From Acidobacteriota bacterium (GTDB taxonomy: Bacteria > Acidobacteriota > Blastocatellia > Pyrinomonadales > Pyrinomonadaceae): a stretch of 38,145 nt of DNA. Below, one piece after another: positions 1,890 through 13,868 of the stretch (the first letter of the stretch is position 1; the number at the start of each line of letters is the position of its first letter). The notes under the pieces were generated by a model, which was not told the DNA's origin, ran no database searches, and saw only the letters and a list, made by a program, of their open reading frames with translations. A program made the position numbers and the translations under genes. The stretch is taken from NCBI GenBank assembly GCA_003222895.1, contig QHXI01000070.1, positions 1 through 38,145 on the forward strand, in the 5' to 3' direction.

Positions 1890-3509
1890 AAGCGCGAAGA
1901 AAAAGTGAACATTTCGATTAAGCGAATCCTGCTGGGCTCATTCATATTCGTTGCCGAGAGCGCTCTCCGCGCTCACATCAAATTTCTCTCCAATGATCGA
2001 CTCGAAGGCCGCGGCACTGGCGCGAAGGGCGGTGAACTCGCCGCGCTTTATGTCGCGGAACAATTCGAAGCGATGGGTCTGAAAGGCGCCGGCGCAAAAG
2101 GAAGTTTCTGGCAGCCGGTTTCACTCGTCGGCGTCAAAGCCGATCCTAAAACTGAATTGCACGTCAATGGCCCAACAGAAGCGGCCAACTTCAAATTCGC
2201 TGACTTTGTCGCGTTCACGGGAGCACAGACTGAACGCGTCAGCGTCGACGCGCCAATGGTTTTTGTTGGCTACGGCATCGACGCGCCCGAGCAGAAGTGG
2301 AACGACTACAAAGGTCCTGCTGAAGACTATCGCGGCAAGATCCTGGTGATGCTGGTCAACGATCCGCCGGCGACTTCCCAGGAACCTGATCTCTTTGGCG
2401 GGCGCAGGCTGACTTACTACGGGCGTTGGACTTACAAGTACGAAGAAGCAGCGCGACGAGGCGCGGTCGGCGCGATTCTGCTGCACACAAGCGAGTCAGC
2501 CGGGTATCCGTGGAGCGTGGTGCGCACTTCGAATGGATCGTGGCGATTCGATATCGCCCGGACTTCGGGCGATAGGAATCCTTACTTACAAATTCGTTCG
2601 TGGATGACGGATGACGCCGCCCATCGCATGATGCAACTCGCCGGATTGAATCTTGACGATTTGCGCAAGCAAGCTGCATCGCGCGATTTTAAACCCATCA
2701 AACTGAATCTAACGGCATTGATGGATCTCAAAAGCGAATTGAAGAGAGTTGAGGCGCCGAACGTCGTTGCGATTCTTCCCGGCCGCGATCCAAAGCTACG
2801 CGACGAATACGTTGTCTACTCCGCGCATTGGGATCATTTTGGGATCGGCGCTCCTGATAAGAGCGGCGACACGATTTATAACGGCGCCCTCGATAACGCC
2901 ACTGGGGTAGCATCGGTTCTGGAAATCGCGCGAGTTCTGTCCAACCTGCCCGCGGCTGAAAAACCACGACGCTCAATCCTGTTCCTCATCACGACCGGTG
3001 AAGAACAGGGTCTGATCGGTTCAGAATGGTATTCACTTCATCCACTGGTCCCGCTCAACAAAACCGCTGCGGACATCAATCTCGATTCGATGAATATCCT
3101 CGGTCCGACGCGGGACTTCGTGCCGTTGGGTGCAGAGCGTTCGTCTTTGAAACTCGTCGTCGATCAGATCGCGCGCGAGCGCGGGCTAACCATCGCGCCC
3201 GATCCACGGCCTGAGCAGGGATCTTTCTATCGCTCGGATCATTTTCCGTTTGCGAAAGTCGGCGTGCCTTCAATCAGCTTGAAGGAGGGCGATGATTACC
3301 TTGGCCATCCGAAAGGTTGGGGCGAGAAGAAATTCAAGGAATACAACGAGGCGCATTATCACCAGCCGTCGGACGAGTATCGCGACGACTGGAATTTCGC
3401 AGGGATGATTCAGGAAGCTGATTTTGCGATGGCGATCGGACGGCGCGTTGCGGATTTACCTACGCTGCCCAAGTTCAATCCGAATGATGAATTCGCTAAG
3501 AAGAAGTAA
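1884..3509 (+). CDS. M28-family zinc aminopeptidase with PA domain
   Basis: Predicted dizinc exopeptidase of the M28 (PSMF/aminopeptidase S-like) family, probably secreted in its relatives. About 541 aa: a short hydrophobic N terminus (ILLGSFIFVA), the conserved ALRAHIKFLSNDRLEGRGTG entry motif, a PA-like insertion around residues 110-250, then the catalytic domain. Metal ligands are visible: His near 315 (SAHWDHFG), Asp near 338 (GALDNATG), the Glu-Glu pair near 373 (TTGEEQG), Asp near 400 (NLDSMN) and His near 453 (SDHFPF). The N terminus looks shortened: the usual signal peptide and spacer are nearly absent and both possible starts (GTG 1881, ATG 1884) lie in a heptamer array; GTG 1905 is another option. 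Export is therefore uncertain. Confidence 0.88.
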   Translation: MTKREEKVNISIKRILLGSFIFVAESALRAHIKFLSNDRLEGRGTGAKGGELAALYVAEQFEAMGLKGAGAKGSFWQPVSLVGVKADPKTELHVNGPTEAANFKFADFVAFTGAQTERVSVDAPMVFVGYGIDAPEQKWNDYKGPAEDYRGKILVMLVNDPPATSQEPDLFGGRRLTYYGRWTYKYEEAARRGAVGAILLHTSESAGYPWSVVRTSNGSWRFDIARTSGDRNPYLQIRSWMTDDAAHRMMQLAGLNLDDLRKQAASRDFKPIKLNLTALMDLKSELKRVEAPNVVAILPGRDPKLRDEYVVYSAHWDHFGIGAPDKSGDTIYNGALDNATGVASVLEIARVLSNLPAAEKPRRSILFLITTGEEQGLIGSEWYSLHPLVPLNKTAADINLDSMNILGPTRDFVPLGAERSSLKLVVDQIARERGLTIAPDPRPEQGSFYRSDHFPFAKVGVPSISLKEGDDYLGHPKGWGEKKFKEYNEAHYHQPSDEYRDDWNFAGMIQEADFAMAIGRRVADLPTLPKFNPNDEFAKKK

Positions 3510-8921: not shown

Positions 8922-8929
8922 CCTTTCCG
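8922..8929 (+). other. Target-site duplication, left copy
   Basis: CCTTTCCG directly abuts the left terminal inverted repeat and is repeated exactly at 13861-13868 outside the right one. Eight to nine bp is the usual duplication for IS1-family insertion. Confidence 0.88.
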
Positions 8930-8954
8930 GGTAGTGGGGTAAATGTGTGGTGCT
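8930..8954 (+). repeat. Left terminal inverted repeat
   Basis: 25 bp identical to the reverse complement of 13836-13860. It begins with GGTAGTG, matching the GGTRATG-like tip of IS1 ends. Confidence 0.9.
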
Positions 8955-9045
8955 GGTTATAGCGGGGCATCGTGGGACATAGCGGGACTAAAGCTGGCGG
9001 GCAGAACTCTGGCGATCTTGCGGTCGCTGGTGATAGCCTTGCGCG

Positions 9046-9537
9046 GTGCGAAACCTCAAAGCACTTCTTGTCTCGATCTTCGATCAACTGGCGATACTCA
9101 CTATGCTAGGAATCCTCACGCTTATCGTAGCAGTCCTAGCCTACGTTTCGCCTTCGCATGGCGGGGTTAGTCGCAAAGTATTAGTGCTATGTTTCGCAAT
9201 CGCGATAATCGGCATTATTGCGACCGTCTATCGAATGCGAATGGTTTACAGAATGAATCGTGCGCGGGCCGTCTTAAGCGGGCGTCTCGCTGAGGGACAG
9301 CGCATACTGTTAGCAATGAGAAGTTCCATACCCGTGCCTACGCAGACTCAGAAGGAGGAAGCGGGCGGCTGGCTCCAGCAAGTTGAAGTCGATATCGGGA
9401 AGTATCTGGATGAATCCTATCTCCGTCGATTTCAGTTTCAAGTCTCATTAGAAAGCCCGGCAAACCCTTTATCGCTCAAGATCGAGTCGGCATTAGAATC
9501 TATCGGGAAGTTTCTTTCCGAACTTTGGGTTAGTTAG
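9046..9537 (+). CDS. Two-TM passenger protein of the transposon, unknown function
   Basis: A 163-aa protein with two close hydrophobic segments (LAILTMLGILTLIVAVLAYV and VLVLCFAIAIIGIIATVYR) and a soluble C-terminal half carrying GWLQQVEVDIGKYLDESYLRRF. No family is recognised. The two-TM-plus-soluble-tail plan occurs in some membrane-acting defence effectors, but that is only an analogy. Start is uncertain: GTG 9046 is the first in-frame start after a stop at 9034, with no clear ribosome site; ATG 9103 would remove most of the first segment's flank. Its stop overlaps the convergent XRE gene stop by 4 nt. Confidence 0.62.
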   Translation: MRNLKALLVSIFDQLAILTMLGILTLIVAVLAYVSPSHGGVSRKVLVLCFAIAIIGIIATVYRMRMVYRMNRARAVLSGRLAEGQRILLAMRSSIPVPTQTQKEEAGGWLQQVEVDIGKYLDESYLRRFQFQVSLESPANPLSLKIESALESIGKFLSELWVS

Positions 9538-9776
9538 GGCAAGTCTAATTTGTCGTCAATCAGCGCGTCCGTTGACACGCGCGCCAGCCGCGCATATCGC
9601 AGCAAGATTAAAAGGTTAGGCTCTCCCGTTCCTCGCTCATAACTCGAAATCACCGTGTAAGTCTTCTTCAGCTTGAGAAGCTTCGCCATCTCTGTCTGAC
9701 TCACTCCTAACCCGTTCCGAATAGCCAGCAACTTGCGAGCTAGACGTTTTGGTTTTTCTCGCGGAGGTTTACCCAT
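9534..9776 (-). CDS. XRE-family helix-turn-helix regulator
   Basis: An 80-aa DNA-binding protein that is almost only a Cro/CI-type HTH: LLAIRNGLGVSQTEMAKLLKL followed by SSYERGTGEPNLLILLRYARLA. It probably represses a promoter in the element, possibly its own. An AGGAGG ribosome site lies upstream of ATG 9776; both are inside a perfect palindrome (9774-9798), a candidate autoregulatory operator or translation-blocking hairpin. It is convergent with the 2-TM gene. Confidence 0.88.
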   Translation of the reverse strand: MGKPPREKPKRLARKLLAIRNGLGVSQTEMAKLLKLKKTYTVISSYERGTGEPNLLILLRYARLARVSTDALIDDKLDLP

Positions 9777-9798
9777 TCAGGACTTCGCCTCCTGAATG
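9774..9798. promoter_or_regulatory. Palindrome enclosing the ribosome site and start codon of the XRE gene
   Basis: CATTCAGGA-N7-TCCTGAATG: 9-bp arms, perfect. On the minus strand the AGGAGG ribosome site overlaps one arm and the ATG is at the end of the other. It could be an operator for the dimeric XRE product or an RNA hairpin that hides the ribosome site. Confidence 0.7.
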
Positions 9799-9866
9799 AG
9801 TTGAATTAACTTGTGGCTATCTCTGTTTCGATATAGACTGCGCGCCGTGTTAGAGGATTGCCGGAA

Positions 9867-9885
9867 CGCCCGCATATGGCGGGCG
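9867..9885. other. GC-rich hairpin
   Basis: CGCCCGC-ATATG-GCGGGCG, a perfect 7-bp stem in the noncoding stretch 9799-9950. No T-run follows, so not a standard terminator. Confidence 0.5.
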
Positions 9886-9950
9886 ATGGCCACTAACCAG
9901 TTCTACCTCGCGCTTTAGTCAACATCTGATCGGTCAGGTCTGCACAGCAT

Positions 9951-10065
9951 ACGGGAGCACAGCGCAAGTAAGCAATAGTGGGATTGCTGAAACCATACTC
10001 CCGTTAGAGCGGGGAAGCCCTTGGGGGCGTCGCAGGGTAGGACGCTCGCCGACTTCCCCGCTTTT
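9951..10065 (+). ncRNA. Candidate structured RNA with possible pseudoknot and terminator-like 3' end
   Basis: Several nested perfect stems occur in 115 nt without a gene. Hairpin A: ACGGGAG 9951-9957 with CTCCCGT 9998-10004, enclosing AGCAAT 9971-9976 with ATTGCT 9983-9988. Hairpin B: AGCGGGGAAG 10008-10017 with CTTCCCCGCT 10053-10062, enclosing GCGTC 10027-10031 with GACGC 10041-10045, followed by TTT. The loop of the inner stem carries AGGG (10034-10037), which can pair with CCCT (10018-10021) and so make a pseudoknot. It lies just before the small Cys ORF at 10073. It could be a cis-regulatory leader or a small RNA ending at the T-run. No known riboswitch or ribozyme class is recognised. 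The strand is inferred from the T-run. Confidence 0.45.
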
Positions 10066-10072
10066 ACAAATC

Positions 10073-10291
10073 ATGTACGTCGTATCTCTCAGCGATCCGG
10101 TTTACCACATTGCGAAGGATGAAAACTTCACGCTCTGCATGATCAGGATTCATGGCGATCCCGGTCGTCGCCGCCGCTGGCAAGATCGTAGATTAGTGAG
10201 TGAGAAGCCTACGGGTCGCTTTGCCGTACTTTGTAAGGACTGTGCGGCTACGCGGTCAGCAAGTCTCTTAAACTCCAAACGTGTTGAGTGA
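10073..10291 (+). CDS. Small Cys-containing protein, possibly truncated
   Basis: A 72-aa product with TLCMIRIHGD and, further on, RFAVLCKDCAA. The spacing of a single Cys plus a CxxC resembles small zinc-finger proteins of phages and mobile elements. The last 15 residues are encoded over the 3' end of the convergent transposase gene (overlap 10248-10291) and look like non-native tail, so the original gene may have been cut when the parts of the element were joined. No ribosome site is evident; the ATG lies 7 nt after the T-run of the structured segment. Confidence 0.45.
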   Translation: MYVVSLSDPVYHIAKDENFTLCMIRIHGDPGRRRRWQDRRLVSEKPTGRFAVLCKDCAATRSASLLNSKRVE

Positions 10292-11189
10292 TTCCGCTTT
10301 CCATCGCCGGAGTGCAACGGATCGAACTGTGAATCCGGCAGAAATTATAGTAAGCGAAATAGACCGCGAGCATCGCCTTCAGGTGTTCCCACTTCTTGCT
10401 AAAAGCGTTCGTCAATCTTGTCAGTCTGCGGATCGATGTTCTCATGCTCAGGTTTGAGCGTTCGACAATGCTTGTACAGATGCGGCTCGGATCGGGATCA
10501 CCGTTCATAATCTTCGTTACTGTTTCCACCACTTCGGGTGGCGAATACTTTTGCTCGCCTTCTCGATCCTTTGCGTAGACTTTGATCAGCATCGCATAGT
10601 CAACTCGCGTTCCGAGTGAATAGCTGACAGCGTTCTCATAAGGCCGGAATCCGTCTGTGGTTAGTTGGAAGCGCCCGGTCGTGGCTTCGTGCAGCTTCTC
10701 AGTGAAAGCCTCACAGTCAACCATTCCGCGCTCGCCTAGATGCCACGCCAGAACAAGCTTTGTGTTTCGTTCGATGCCAACCCAAGTATACGCATCGCCT
10801 TTGTGCGCGTCAGTGATTCCCTTAAAGAGCTTGTGGCGATTCTTACATTGAACAAATCCCCAAATCTCATCCGCTTCTACGTCTTTGACGGCAACGCCCT
10901 TAATCTTCCGGCGCATGAGTTCTTCGCAATGCTCGCCAGCCAGTAACAGAACGGACGTGATAGTTTTCTTTTCGATGTTGGTGATCCGCTCAATGCTGCG
11001 GATGCTGTTGCCTTCAAGTAGGAGCCTGAGAACGAGCAAAGACTTTTCTTCGGACAGGTACATATTGCCCAGAAGTTTTTCGCGTTCCTCTTGGAATCGG
11101 CGCTTGCATTGGTTACAACGAAACCGCTGATTGCCTTTGCGATCCTTCCCGTCTTTCTTCGTTTCGATTTTGCAATTGTGACACGTCAT
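10248..11189 (-). CDS. IS1-like DDE transposase
   Basis: Catalyses cut and insertion of the element. From ATG 11189 it is 313 aa, a single ORF that fuses the parts called InsA and InsB in E. coli IS1. N terminus: zinc finger with Cys 3, 6, 25 and 28 (CHNC...CNQC). Next an HTH around residues 44-80 (EGNSIRSIERITNIEKKTI). Then the IS1-type catalytic domain: Asp107 (EADEIWGFV), Asp179 (TTDGFRPY), Glu243 (IVERSNLSMR), followed by RLTRLTNAFSKKWEHLKAM and YFAYYNFCRIH. A TTG start at 11252 would add 21 residues before the zinc finger; ATG 11189 is preferred because family members begin right at it. A TTGACA promoter lies upstream at 11318-11347. Confidence 0.92.
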   Translation of the reverse strand: MTCHNCKIETKKDGKDRKGNQRFRCNQCKRRFQEEREKLLGNMYLSEEKSLLVLRLLLEGNSIRSIERITNIEKKTITSVLLLAGEHCEELMRRKIKGVAVKDVEADEIWGFVQCKNRHKLFKGITDAHKGDAYTWVGIERNTKLVLAWHLGERGMVDCEAFTEKLHEATTGRFQLTTDGFRPYENAVSYSLGTRVDYAMLIKVYAKDREGEQKYSPPEVVETVTKIMNGDPDPSRICTSIVERSNLSMRTSIRRLTRLTNAFSKKWEHLKAMLAVYFAYYNFCRIHSSIRCTPAMESGITQHVWSLRDLLTA

Positions 11190-11269
11190 GTGAACCTTGA
11201 TTCTTTCTGCGATCAGGCTCACAATGACTTTGCGTGAATCAGGCGTGAGCAATCGCGTCTGGTTTTCAA

Positions 11270-11303
11270 AAGGGCCTTAGCGGTTACAGCCGTTAGGGCC
11301 TTT
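11270..11303 (+). terminator. Hairpin with T-rich tail between promoter and transposase
   Basis: A 14-bp stem (11270-11283 with 11290-11303, loop TTACAG) followed by TTTGTTT-like sequence (11301-11307). Three of the pairs are G-U in + strand RNA but would be A-C mismatches in minus-strand RNA, so the structure is built for the + strand. It could stop transcripts that run antisense across the transposase before they reach the divergent promoter. Confidence 0.6.
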
Positions 11304-11316
11304 GTTTCAATACAGC

Positions 11317-11338
11317 TATATTACTCTGGAATAACATA
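11317..11338. promoter_or_regulatory. Operator-like palindrome 1
   Basis: 22 bp, begins TATATTACT and ends ATAACATA; about 17 of 22 positions match operator 2 at 11354-11375, 37 bp away. It overlaps the transposase -10. Confidence 0.6.
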
Positions 11339-11347
11339 TCCTGTCAA
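11318..11347 (-). promoter_or_regulatory. Probable promoter of the transposase
   Basis: On the minus strand TTGACA (11347-11342), an 18-nt spacer, then TAATAT (11323-11318). The -35 is the sigma-70 consensus. A 22-bp operator-like palindrome (11317-11338) covers the -10 and most of the spacer. Confidence 0.65.
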
Positions 11348-11353
11348 CACAAA

Positions 11354-11375
11354 TATATTACTTGCGGATAATATA
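11354..11375. promoter_or_regulatory. Operator-like palindrome 2
   Basis: 22 bp with arms AATATATTA and TAATATATT (perfect 9-bp arms over 11352-11377) around CTTGCGGA. It overlaps the -35 and spacer of the + strand promoter of the zinc-ribbon gene. Confidence 0.65.
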
Positions 11376-11390
11376 TTTAGACGCTATACT
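11362..11390 (+). promoter_or_regulatory. Promoter of the zinc-ribbon gene
   Basis: TTGCGG (11362-11367), 17-nt spacer, TATACT (11385-11390). Transcription would start near 11397, so the mRNA would be leaderless or nearly so, beginning at ATG 11398. Confidence 0.65.
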
Positions 11391-11397
11391 CATGGTC

Positions 11398-11565
11398 ATG
11401 CCTAAAGTGAAAATTACTGTTTGGGGCTTCCGGTGCGGACGCTGTAAGTATGAGTGGGTTCCCCGCGATCCTGATAGTAAGGATGAACCAAAGTTCTGTC
11501 CGAGCTGCAAAAGCCCTTACTGGAACAAGCCTCGAAAAAACAAGGTAGCCAAGGCGGGGAAGTAG
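11398..11565 (+). CDS. Small zinc-ribbon protein
   Basis: A 55-aa protein with two CxxC knuckles (FRCGRCKYEW and FCPSCKSPYW), an aromatic basic tail WNKPRKNK, and one beta-rich ribbon. It probably binds one zinc and nucleic acid or a partner protein. ATG 11398 fits the promoter position; ATG 11392 and TTG 11362 are in frame upstream but 11362 is the -35 itself. It is divergent from the transposase, with which it shares a 75-nt control region containing twin operators. Small zinc ribbons of this look are common beside mobile and toxin-type genes; the exact role is unknown. Confidence 0.8.
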   Translation: MPKVKITVWGFRCGRCKYEWVPRDPDSKDEPKFCPSCKSPYWNKPRKNKVAKAGK

Positions 11566-11834
11566 CGTTAAACTACTCCCCGGTTGACCCTTGGCTTTCT
11601 GGCTTATGGTGGCGCTCGCGGCCAGACGGTATAACGACTTACTCTCATTCTTGAGAGTAAACCGCAAAGATACTCTGCCTGCCTATTCCTGCCTCAAAAT
11701 ATTTCTTGAGATACTTTCAGATCACCTGTTTCGAGATATTTCCAGAGACTTTTGACGGTATTTTGTTTGGGCGATTTTCGTGATAATTCAAACTGTCTTT
11801 TTGGACTATAACGATTCGAGTTTATCGGAATAAT
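11566..11834. other. Noncoding stretch in the transposon with hairpins
   Basis: No gene seen. GGGGAAGTAG 11557-11566 with CTACTCCCC gives an imperfect hairpin at the end of the zinc-ribbon gene. A perfect 9-bp stem with TTCT loop is at 11639-11660 (TTACTCTCA / TGAGAGTAA). AT-rich, repeated GAGATA(C/T)TTTC-like segments follow around 11700-11755. Confidence 0.5.
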
Positions 11835-12767
11835 TCAAGAGCGGGGTTTGATTTTCCACGCTGTAAGTTCTTGTCTCAGACGGGCTATGGACAATTCAAC
11901 ATTAGGCGGAAGGCACAGTCGGGCCGCATGGAGAACCGCAATATCGGACGGCTTTGCGTCGTCGGCTCGCAGGGTTGCAAATCTCTCAAGCAAGTCCGGA
12001 GGTAAGTCGTAAACCGCGAGTACTTCTTTTCTCCACTCCCTCTTTCGAGTTGCTTCTGTGGAGTTTTGGGCGATCCTGGCGATCTTCTTGGCTTCAATCC
12101 AAATCGGCTGAAGTTCGGCATATTTGGTCGCCAAGCAATTGCGATCCGTATCGCTCCAAACATGCTTGATATTGCGAGCGCCGCCCCGACTGTGTTCGAT
12201 GATAAGGTTAGGCAACTCTTTCATGATGAATCGAAGCTTGTCTCTCTTTTTGGATGAAACTCTCTTGACGGCCTTCTCAATCGCGTCCGTTGCGTCGCCG
12301 ATAGCTTGCCCTGACTGCATTGAAAGGTTCTTTCCTACCCCAGAGGCAAGATAGGCAGCCGCAACCAAATAGCAGTCTTCAAGCGTTTCGTCTAACGTCA
12401 GCAATAGTTCTGAACGAAACTGAGAAATTAGAATTACAGTGGCATTTGCGGCCATGTTTCCAACCCAATGATCCTTGCGAATGGGGTCAAGTGAAAGCTT
12501 CTTTTGTTCTCCAGTATTCGTATCTTTCGCGTTCACTTCGAAAACGTCATAGTACCGCTCACACACGCGGATGATCTTCTTGACCAGATTAAGGGGTGAG
12601 TATTCACTTGTGAATACTCCAGAGCCGTCCGCGTACACGATAAGCGGATCTCCCGCGTCGGTTTTGCGAACCGCTGAAAAAGGAGGGTTGCCCGAACGGT
12701 TAAGATAGGAAATCGTTTCGGTAACTACATCTCTGGCGAGAGCGTCAAGCTCTGCATCGGTGAGCAT
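11835..12767 (-). CDS. 310-aa passenger protein of unknown function
   Basis: No family recognised. The N terminus (DAELDALARDVVTETISYL) and middle look mixed alpha/beta; a hydrophobic helix-like run SELLLTLDETLEDCYLVAAAYLASG lies near residue 120-145; the rest is mostly helical and charged, with EHSRGGARNIKHVW. No membrane segment, no nuclease motif seen. AGGAAG 7 nt before ATG 12767 supports the start. It is divergent from the EVE/NucS-like nuclease gene with a shared control region of about 125 nt, so it may be its partner (specificity, inhibitor or immunity); that is inference from position only. Confidence 0.75.
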   Translation of the reverse strand: MLTDAELDALARDVVTETISYLNRSGNPPFSAVRKTDAGDPLIVYADGSGVFTSEYSPLNLVKKIIRVCERYYDVFEVNAKDTNTGEQKKLSLDPIRKDHWVGNMAANATVILISQFRSELLLTLDETLEDCYLVAAAYLASGVGKNLSMQSGQAIGDATDAIEKAVKRVSSKKRDKLRFIMKELPNLIIEHSRGGARNIKHVWSDTDRNCLATKYAELQPIWIEAKKIARIAQNSTEATRKREWRKEVLAVYDLPPDLLERFATLRADDAKPSDIAVLHAARLCLPPNVELSIARLRQELTAWKIKPRS

Positions 12768-12800
12768 AGCGGCTTCCTGATAGCCAGTCCTGAAAAGTAA

Positions 12801-12871
12801 TCGGCTCGCCCGTCGCGTCAGGATGTCGCGGCCTTTCCTCTCGTTAGCTAGACGTGAGTAAGGCGAGCCGA
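12801..12871. promoter_or_regulatory. Inverted repeat in the divergent control region
   Basis: TCGGCTCGCC (12801-12810) and GGCGAGCCGA (12862-12871), perfect 10-bp arms 51 nt apart, between the start codons of the 310-aa protein and the nuclease. It may be two half-sites for a regulator acting on both genes. A TATTAT box at 12877-12882 could be the -10 of the nuclease gene. Confidence 0.5.
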
Positions 12872-12892
12872 AGTTGTATTATGGATTCTACC

Positions 12893-13837
12893 ATGAACTA
12901 TTGGCTGTTCATTGTTACGCAAAAGAAAAGCGACGGCAGGACGTTTGCTGCGGACGCTGTTCTCAACCAAAGATTGGCGGACAAGTTCTGGGGACTTGGT
13001 GAGCGAACGCCAAACAGGCGACATCTTCAAAAGGGCGATAGGGCGATCTTTTATGTGGGCACTGGGTTTTCCACTTTTGCCGCTTGCGTCACACTGTCCA
13101 GTGAAGCCTTCGAACTATCAGAAGAACAGAAGGACAAATACGGGCACGGCCTAGACTTCTACCGCGCAGAGTACGGCGTAACGCTTGATGACATTCAACT
13201 GTGGGAACCGCCGCGACTCGTTAAGGAGGTAATTCCGAGTCTGAGGTTCATTGAGAATAAACAGAATTGGGGTGCGTATTTTCAAGGCGGTGTGAGACAG
13301 CTTTCCGAAGATGATTTTCGGGCTATTACAGAGAATCGCGCCATAGCCGCCGTACAGATTTCCAAGACCGAAGACGCAATAATCAGCGAAAGTCAGTTTG
13401 CTTTAGAAGCTCATCTTGAAGAATTCATCGACAAGAATTGGAAGCATATCGACTTCGGCGCAAACCTAACGAAATATCAAGTTGACGATCAAGGCGGGAG
13501 GCAATTTCCCGCTGGCCCGTGGAGCATCGATTTTCTTTGTGTAGATAAAGCAAACGATGACTTGGTAGTAATCGAACTCAAGCGCGGCAAGAGTAGCGAT
13601 TCGACCGTAGGTCAGGTCTTACGTTATATAGGATGGGTCGAAGAAAACGTAGCCAAGGCAGGGCAGCAAGTGCGGGGCATAATAATCGCCCAAGAAGCAG
13701 ACGATGCGCTGAGATATGCGGTCAAGGGTTTGAAGAACGTGAACGTGTTAACTTACAAAGTGGATTTCAGGCTATCACCGTTTAAGTCCGGCAAATCTCT
13801 AACGCAAGACACTTCCCGTGCCAGAGGATCGGAGTAG
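12893..13837 (+). CDS. EVE-like plus NucS-like (DUF91) nuclease, candidate modification-dependent restriction enzyme
   Basis: 314 aa. Residues 1-150 look like an EVE/PUA-type domain: NYWLFIVTQ start, LQKGDRAIFYVG, LRFIENKQNWGAYFQGGVR and LSEDDFRAI. Residues about 165-300 match the NucS/DUF91 PD-(D/E)XK core with Asp213 (SIDFLCVD), Glu228-x-Lys230 (VIELKRG) and the following GQVLRYIGW helix. EVE domains bind modified bases in nucleic acid; the pairing with a nuclease suggests a restriction system aimed at modified (phage) DNA. ATG 12893 is preferred because EVE proteins start at this point; ATG 12881 and GTG 12854 are in frame. A TATTAT box (12877-12882) would give a near-leaderless mRNA. The stop codon TAG (13835-13837) overlaps the first two bases of the right terminal repeat. 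Confidence 0.83.
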   Translation: MNYWLFIVTQKKSDGRTFAADAVLNQRLADKFWGLGERTPNRRHLQKGDRAIFYVGTGFSTFAACVTLSSEAFELSEEQKDKYGHGLDFYRAEYGVTLDDIQLWEPPRLVKEVIPSLRFIENKQNWGAYFQGGVRQLSEDDFRAITENRAIAAVQISKTEDAIISESQFALEAHLEEFIDKNWKHIDFGANLTKYQVDDQGGRQFPAGPWSIDFLCVDKANDDLVVIELKRGKSSDSTVGQVLRYIGWVEENVAKAGQQVRGIIIAQEADDALRYAVKGLKNVNVLTYKVDFRLSPFKSGKSLTQDTSRARGSE

Positions 13838-13860
13838 CACCACACATTTACCCCACTACC
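13836..13860 (-). repeat. Right terminal inverted repeat
   Basis: 25 bp, exact reverse complement of 8930-8954; ends CCCCACTACC. The first two bases are the end of the nuclease stop codon. Confidence 0.9.
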
Positions 13861-13868
13861 CCTTTCCG
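13861..13868 (+). other. Target-site duplication, right copy
   Basis: CCTTTCCG, identical to 8922-8929. Removing 8930-13868 restores an unbroken intergenic sequence. Confidence 0.88.

Follow-up and report, generated by a model that had tools for sequence, protein, structure and literature searches.

EVE-PD(D/E)XK proteins have already been proposed as putative type IV restriction enzymes (Bell, Wolf and Koonin 2020, PMC7641849), and the EVE domain of the restriction enzyme VcaM4I flips and reads 5-methylcytosine (5mC) or 5-hydroxymethylcytosine (5hmC) (PMC7897488). Passenger-carrying "transporter" insertion sequences (IS) of the IS1/IS1595 kind have been described as well (PMC3129680, PMC9330008), and Tn7-like transposons carry defence cargo, with known immune systems in 26% (Benler 2021, PMC8649781). 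Here we analyse a stretch of 38,145 nucleotides (the window; contig QHXI01000070.1 of assembly GCA_003222895.1, forward strand) from an Acidobacteriota bacterium of the Pyrinomonadaceae, in which a gene for an EVE-NucS-like protein lies inside an IS1-like transposon. The protein is probably a single-chain, modification-dependent (type IV-like) restriction enzyme that travels as a passenger of a cargo-exchanging IS1-like transposon. The gene and its parts are as follows.

12893..13837, + strand: EVE-NucS-like gene, 314 amino acids (aa), stop codon included (open reading frame (ORF) list, Pfam, PADLOC, predicted model)
12893..13333, + strand: EVE (PUA-fold) domain, residues 1-147 (Pfam, PDB profile search, VIA-align)
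13388..13768, + strand: NucS-type PD-(D/E)XK nuclease domain, residues 166-292 (Pfam, structural and sequence alignments)
13529-13531, 13574-13576 and 13580-13582, + strand: catalytic codons D213, E228 and K230, within the nuclease domain

The gene, a single copy in the source genome, starts at ATG 12893 and stops at TAG 13835-13837; this start is preferred over GTG 12854 because the product of a relative at another locus, L002, begins MKYWMF. Its domain assignments and catalytic triad are established. Pfam places EVE (PF01878) on residues 2-147 (25.3 bits, cut-off 23) and NucS_C (PF01939) on residues 211-270 (33.1 bits, cut-off 24), fused in one chain; no HNH family is among the Pfam matches, and the C-terminal domain is of the PD-(D/E)XK type. 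When compared with the PDB, the EVE profile matches the solved EVE proteins 2p5d (1.8e-11) and 1wmm (2.9e-6) and, over 40 positions, the restriction GTPase subunit 6p0f (0.0037). In P. abyssi NucS (2vld) the counterparts of the nuclease residues D213, E228 and K230 are D160, E174 and K176, the catalytic residues of NucS. The triad is invariant across nine aligned nuclease domains, the window protein's among them; a helix glutamate (E172) and Q241/Y245 are also common to the nine. The PADLOC candidate defence family PDC-S02 (PDLC04824), which comes without a cut-off, matches at 4e-42, with residues 147-295 alone aligned to model positions 159-306 of 308. The initial annotation, made from the sequence, had proposed exactly this joining of an EVE reader to a PD-(D/E)XK core with Asp213, Glu228 and Lys230; the Pfam, PDB profile and model matches agree with the architecture, and the alignment to 2vld and the invariance of the triad bear out the residues. 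The same two-domain plan and predicted role are found in the EVE-PD(D/E)XK enzymes of PMC7641849; however, the window nuclease is NucS-like, whereas NucS and DUF91 have no occurrence in the main text of that paper, and its consulted parts describe no bounded transposon carrier of the kind delimited here.

Structure prediction yielded both folds expected from the sequence, EVE and PD-(D/E)XK. A first model from two sequences had a predicted local distance difference test score (pLDDT) of 52.6 and is too weak on its own; for it, too, Foldseek ranked NucS and EndoMS highest, at about 1e-3. With two nuclease relatives from viral contigs (L143, L144) added, the second model has a mean pLDDT of 62.7 (by blocks of ten residues, 69-88 at residues 211-290 and 40-76 in the EVE half) and matches EndoMS 5gke at 1.2e-5 and NucS 2vld at 1.4e-5 in Foldseek. 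VIA-align, run on the top chains from Foldseek, aligns it with EndoMS 5gke_A (Z 12.2, 115 aligned, 3.8 Å), NucS 2vld_B (Z 11.7, 108 aligned, 2.7 Å), the EVE proteins 2hd9 (Z 8.6) and 2p5d (Z 8.4), and the restriction enzyme VcaM4I, 6yex_A (Z 8.1, 123 aligned, 4.2 Å). The EVE structural matches are slightly above the middling range, but the sequence-profile matches to 2p5d, 1wmm and 6p0f support an EVE fold. The window protein shares with the mismatch endonuclease NucS/EndoMS the C-terminal nuclease fold and the aligned catalytic residues; unlike NucS/EndoMS, it has EVE in place of the NucS N-terminal part and is sporadic and mobile. VcaM4I likewise couples an N-terminal EVE domain of about 147 residues to a C-terminal nuclease, which is HNH in VcaM4I and PD-(D/E)XK in the window protein (PMC7897488).

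The carrier is an IS1-like transposon of 4,931 bp, at 8930-13860, whose ends, target duplication and empty site are established. Its boundaries and transposase are as follows.

8922..8929, no strand: left target-site duplication copy, 8 bp, CCTTTCCG (flank comparison)
8930..8954, + strand: left terminal inverted repeat, 25 bp, perfect (repeat search)
10248..11252, − strand: IS1-like DDE transposase with N-terminal zinc-binding region (PF03400, NF033558, alignment)
13836..13860, − strand: right terminal inverted repeat, 25 bp, overlapped by the EVE-NucS stop codon (repeat search)
13861..13868, no strand: right target-site duplication copy, CCTTTCCG (flank comparison)

The arms at 8929-8954 and 13836-13861 form a 26-bp inverted repeat that is 100% complementary; the ends were set at 8930 and 13860, with repeats of 25 bp, because the outermost base was given to the flank, which reads CCTTTCCG on both sides. 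The window contains two occurrences of the 23-base core of the repeat (at most three mismatches), whereas shuffled sequences average 0.00. When the flanks are joined with one CCTTTCCG, they align across the junction with the empty site of the congener G001 (87% over 1,069 columns), which reads GCTTTCCG in a single copy, identical to CCTTTCCG at seven of eight bases. The transposase matches PF03400 (36.2 bits over 24.1) and, just below the cut-off of 100, NF033558 (99.5 bits), and its D113, D185 and E249 are invariant in seven aligned transposases. The element thus combines the three marks of a transporter-type IS1 element: a DDE transposase; terminal repeats, target duplication and empty site; and passenger genes unrelated to transposition. 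The perfect repeats, the 8-bp duplication and the congener's empty site confirm that the gene is transposon cargo, as the initial annotation had it; its view of a mobile immunity unit holds as regards carriage in a mobile element, but it did not foresee the family with differing cargo described below. Like the described transporter IS, the window element has a single transposase, terminal repeats, a short target duplication and passengers (PMC3129680, PMC9330008). Tn7-like transposons carry varied cargo including restriction and toxin-antitoxin genes (PMC8649781), as does the IS1-like family, but the window element is far smaller and has a single IS1-like transposase; neither Tn7 genes nor a methyltransferase were found among the six of its ORFs that were scanned (a 72-aa ORF at 10073-10291 was left out).

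The transposase turned up at 20 places in 12 of 60 genomes at E 1e-30. A profile search at E 1e-60 covered 119 family genomes and matched 32 places in 21 of them, 16 being additional to the first search. Ends and duplications were sought at each of the 36 distinct places. At 27 places a GGTAGTG-type end pair (one mismatch allowed) spans the transposase and an exact duplication is present, of 8 bp in 24 and of 9 bp in three; three others have ends only and six have neither; two of these six, L036 and L084, come from a short contig or from close to the end of one. A control in which the duplication was sought at eight shifted offsets returned one match over all 36 loci. The bounded elements measure 1,395-7,450 bp (median 3,471), and some (L047, L093) hold a partial transposase only. 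At least one further ORF of at least 120 aa accompanies the transposase in 25 of the 27 duplication-bounded copies, and in 28 of 30 elements (L040 and L091 among them, L039 and L099 not), with the reservation that cargo ORFs were called mechanically and some may be spurious. This frequency of additional ORFs, some of them of immune type, sets the lineage apart from the other transporter IS as the consulted parts of PMC3129680 and PMC9330008 present them. A small related ORF of about 55-100 aa, with a Gly/Lys-rich stretch by eye, forms one single-linkage cluster present in 18 of the 30 elements and lies near one end in 13 elements with coordinates (e.g. L032 11685-11951, L034 7089-7340, L089 6647-6940); it is perhaps part of the element backbone.

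The 29 other elements compared contain no relative of EVE-NucS (blastp 1e-4) and carry a variety of other genes. In ten of the 27 duplication-bounded elements, a gene has a PADLOC match at 1e-10 (window, L032, L035, L042, L048, L085, L086, L088, L089, L094; L085 and L086 were assigned as the two methylase members via a separate domain scan). PD-Lambda-2_B-like proteins with helix-turn-helix (HTH) and M78 domains, recognised by hidden Markov models, occur in six elements, five placed by profile and L042 by homology cluster.

L088, 1060-4179: element with PD-Lambda-2_B-like gene
L089, 6615-9999: element with PD-Lambda-2_B-like gene
L086, 7000-11759: element with PD-Lambda-2_B-like gene
L032, 8746-12027: element with PD-Lambda-2_B-like gene
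L094, 30-3264: element with PD-Lambda-2_B-like gene
L042, 7251-10709: element with PD-Lambda-2_B-like gene

Five of these six also have a related partner of about 166 aa, and L042 has a HigB-like toxin gene with a relative in L094. An N6/N4 DNA methylase and an Mrr_cat domain are joined in one protein in L085 (318-1769) and L086 (10087-11685), a possible single-gene restriction-modification enzyme. Further cargo comprises a TIR protein (L035), PDC-S42 (L048), AAA proteins (L040, L090), NYN (L091), Fic with SocA-Panacea (L092), Bro-N (L097), P63C (L087), a ClpP-like protein (L034) and several unnamed ORFs. Two unnamed cargo ORFs of L031 (7559-8032 and 10635-11141) have D...E.K stretches that by eye resemble PD-(D/E)XK cores; neither matches a Pfam family over cut-off, and the first alone has weak PADLOC matches.

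Cargo and transposase have different histories in this family, as follows from the mismatch of their identities among element pairs. Fifteen pairs have transposases at least 70% identical, and 14 are informative; the pair L096/L099 was dropped since no cargo ORF of L099 reaches 120 aa, although smaller or overlapping frames of the pair do match. Eleven of the 14 share no cargo ORF of at least 120 aa (blastp 1e-3), as do seven of the ten pairs with a duplication in both elements. The two bounded elements of the source genome (the window's and L029) have transposases 77% identical and small accessory ORFs in common, but no cargo ORF of at least 120 aa. The transposases of L088 and L089 are 90% identical and their PD-Lambda-2_B proteins only 37%; conversely, L032 and L086 have transposases 61% identical and cargo 68-71% identical, and 11 pairs with transposases below 48% identity share cargo. 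In the transposase identity table the frame of L039, which contains a stop codon, is poorly compared.

The full-length EVE-NucS protein was found in the source genome only, in each of three overlapping genome sets: 97 relatives (E 1e-10; partial matches to the nuclease half in two other genomes), 396 genomes of the phylum (E 1e-10; nuclease half only in eight others) and 162 genomes of the class (E 1e-25). A contig scan confined to close relatives gave one full-length relative, L002, and one EVE-only match. The L002 protein (310 aa, from an Acidobacteriaceae metagenome-assembled genome) is 54% identical in alignment (52% in the contig scan) and keeps the catalytic residues and domain signatures; its locus is without terminal repeats of the window element type and has an Mrr_cat gene about 3 kb away. 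The full-length protein was not found in viral contigs or in 50,697 phage records, and none of the 22 plasmid records with partial matches covers 80% of the query. The contexts of six of these 22 were inspected, and in three of them the nuclease-half relative adjoins restriction or methylase genes. On L143 from IMG/VR, one of two viral contigs with such a relative, a type ISP restriction-modification enzyme (8-2503) is directly followed by a NucS-like nuclease (2521-3450) with a different N-terminal part, by eye like those of L049, L050 and L144.

The stop codon of the gene does overlap the right end of the element, as the initial annotation had noticed: the last two bases of TAG 13835-13837 are the first two of the right repeat. 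The overlap is real but unremarkable, and the accompanying proposal that the cargo had been trimmed to the element edge finds no support in the length of the L002 protein or in the ORF ends in the terminal repeats of other elements. The 310-aa L002 protein is no longer than the window protein of 314 aa, so nothing has visibly been cut off. Of 30 elements, 10, counting that of the window, have an ORF of at least 100 aa that ends within their terminal 25 bp; the count takes any mechanical ORF, transposase frames among them.

From these observations we infer that the protein reads a modified base, cuts DNA and protects against phage or other modified DNA. The N-terminal EVE domain would flip out and read the modified base in incoming DNA; the C-terminal NucS-type PD-(D/E)XK domain (D213, E228 and K230, with helix residue E172 before them) would then cut the DNA; and the transporter IS would carry an enzyme that, as the family swaps its cargo, could move as a mobile immunity module. 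The base read may be 5mC/5hmC, by likeness to VcaM4I, or possibly N6-methyladenine (6mA), given the weak match to 6p0f, the reader of T. gammatolerans McrB. The T. gammatolerans McrB reader is called a 6mA-sensing YTH domain in PMC7897488. Several observations weigh against a modification-dependent restriction enzyme. Confidence in the second model is modest, both in its mean (pLDDT 62.7) and in the EVE half (40-76), and the EVE Z-scores of about 8 are close to a level reachable by chance arrangements. L002 is the only full-length relative from the contig scan, and three of the six plasmid contexts (Paenarthrobacter, Sinorhizobium, Haloarcula) are without a clear restriction neighbour. Moreover, C5-methyltransferase (PF00145) matches exceed the cut-off at three places in the source genome and are complete at one; cutting at every 5mC would therefore be harmful to the host.

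Since EndoMS and NucS are the best structural matches of the nuclease domain, the protein might instead be a repair nuclease of the NucS/EndoMS kind, cutting mismatches or flaps, that rides the transposon and is steered to damaged bases by EVE. We regard this as unlikely: the nuclease half alone matches, the NucS equivalog NF003270 scores 37.6 bits against a cut-off of 216, and several nuclease relatives sit in restriction loci. The full-length protein is also sporadic, unlike a housekeeping repair gene; the initial annotation had named fixation in chromosomes as a repair enzyme as a finding that would speak against its reading, and in the sets of 97, 396 and 162 genomes the protein shows no such fixation. 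The same DNA-nuclease folds argue against an RNA- or self-directed toxic nuclease acting by abortive infection, in which EVE would read modified RNA or sense infection and the nuclease would kill the cell. Toxin-antitoxin-like genes do occur in some sister elements, but the 310-aa gene beside EVE-NucS has no Pfam match and only a weak PADLOC match (DpdC, 0.008), hence no antitoxin signature, and we find this explanation quite unlikely.

Nor do we favour two further explanations. A decaying passenger without function would fit a single copy in the source genome and one full-length relative found; that the 314-codon frame is intact, and that the catalytic residues and domain signatures have been retained although identity to L002 is 54%, makes decay very improbable. 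The position of the gene at the element edge, its stop codon inside the end, could suggest that EVE-NucS serves the transposon itself, by aiding transposition or attacking competing elements, rather than host immunity. Yet 26 of the 29 elements that have no related ORF show exact target duplications, so EVE-NucS is not needed to transpose, and we give this possibility hardly any weight.

A wider and more tentative reading, which we put at somewhat below an even chance, is that the IS1-like lineage is a minimal immunity shuttle of 2-7 kb with a single transposase. Its elements would gain and exchange small defence modules (EVE-NucS, PD-Lambda-2-like pairs, HigBA, methylase-Mrr fusions, TIR, AAA) at a higher rate than their transposases diverge, redistributing single-enzyme immunity across genomes without a large island. 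A comparison of PADLOC matches at E 1e-10 speaks against the shuttle, as this crude control showed no clear overall enrichment of cargo (all 65 ORFs of at least 120 aa) over flanks (100 ORFs drawn at random from 298). Cargo gave at least 11 matches in 65 (PD-Lambda-2_B in six, methyltransferases in two and three from other scans, with 25 of 53 families among the matches listed); the flanks gave 24 families of one or two members each, 26 member entries in all and hence at most 26 proteins in 100, entries possibly repeating a protein (our guess is 10-15). In our judgement, PADLOC models match ordinary ATPases and methylases too. The PD-Lambda-2_B family is more telling: it has 35 matches of any length in the 119 family genomes, and of the seven genes that are near-full-length, covering at least 300 model positions, five lie inside these elements; these five are related cargo and therefore not independent events. 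The two outside (L130, L131) have no end pair and no such transposase in the stretch fetched.

Within the literature searched, which excludes most subscription journals, we met no IS1-like element with defence cargo; as far as searched, two things are new: that the NucS-like version is carried by a small transposon with all its limits defined, and that an IS1-like family exchanges its cargo. The family is more interesting than the window enzyme itself. Defence carriage is documented for large Tn7-like elements (PMC8649781), and here an element of less than 5 kb with a single transposase carries a likely modification-dependent restriction enzyme. Its sister elements show module exchange and constitute a bounded set of uncharacterised passenger genes that are candidates for antiphage activity.

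The remaining ORFs of the window element are as follows.

9046..9537, + strand: unnamed ORF, 163 aa, N-terminal part hydrophobic by eye (ORF list, Pfam and PADLOC scans)
9534..9776, − strand: small HTH_3 regulator (35.5 bits, cut-off 23), related to HTH ORFs of L029 and L035 (Pfam, homology clustering)
10073..10291, + strand: 72-aa ORF, also in sister element L029, overlapping the 3' end of the transposase gene (homology clustering)
11362..11565, + strand: 67-aa zinc-ribbon-like ORF, Pfam matches all under cut-off, relative in L031 (Pfam, clustering)
11835..12767, − strand: 310-aa gene, function unassigned, in divergent orientation to the nuclease gene (ORF list, homology)

The 310-aa gene has two relatives among the 162 class genomes, one in element L044 (26%) and the other (G498, L151) outside any recognisable element; at L002 there is none (best tblastn E 3.7). 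Elsewhere in the source genome there is a lone end of this type, with two mismatches, at C126:690-712 (L008, L030), just upstream of a gene that by eye is secA-like. No bounds of an element were found around it, close as it is to the end of its contig, and it is possibly a third element copy cut off by the assembly.
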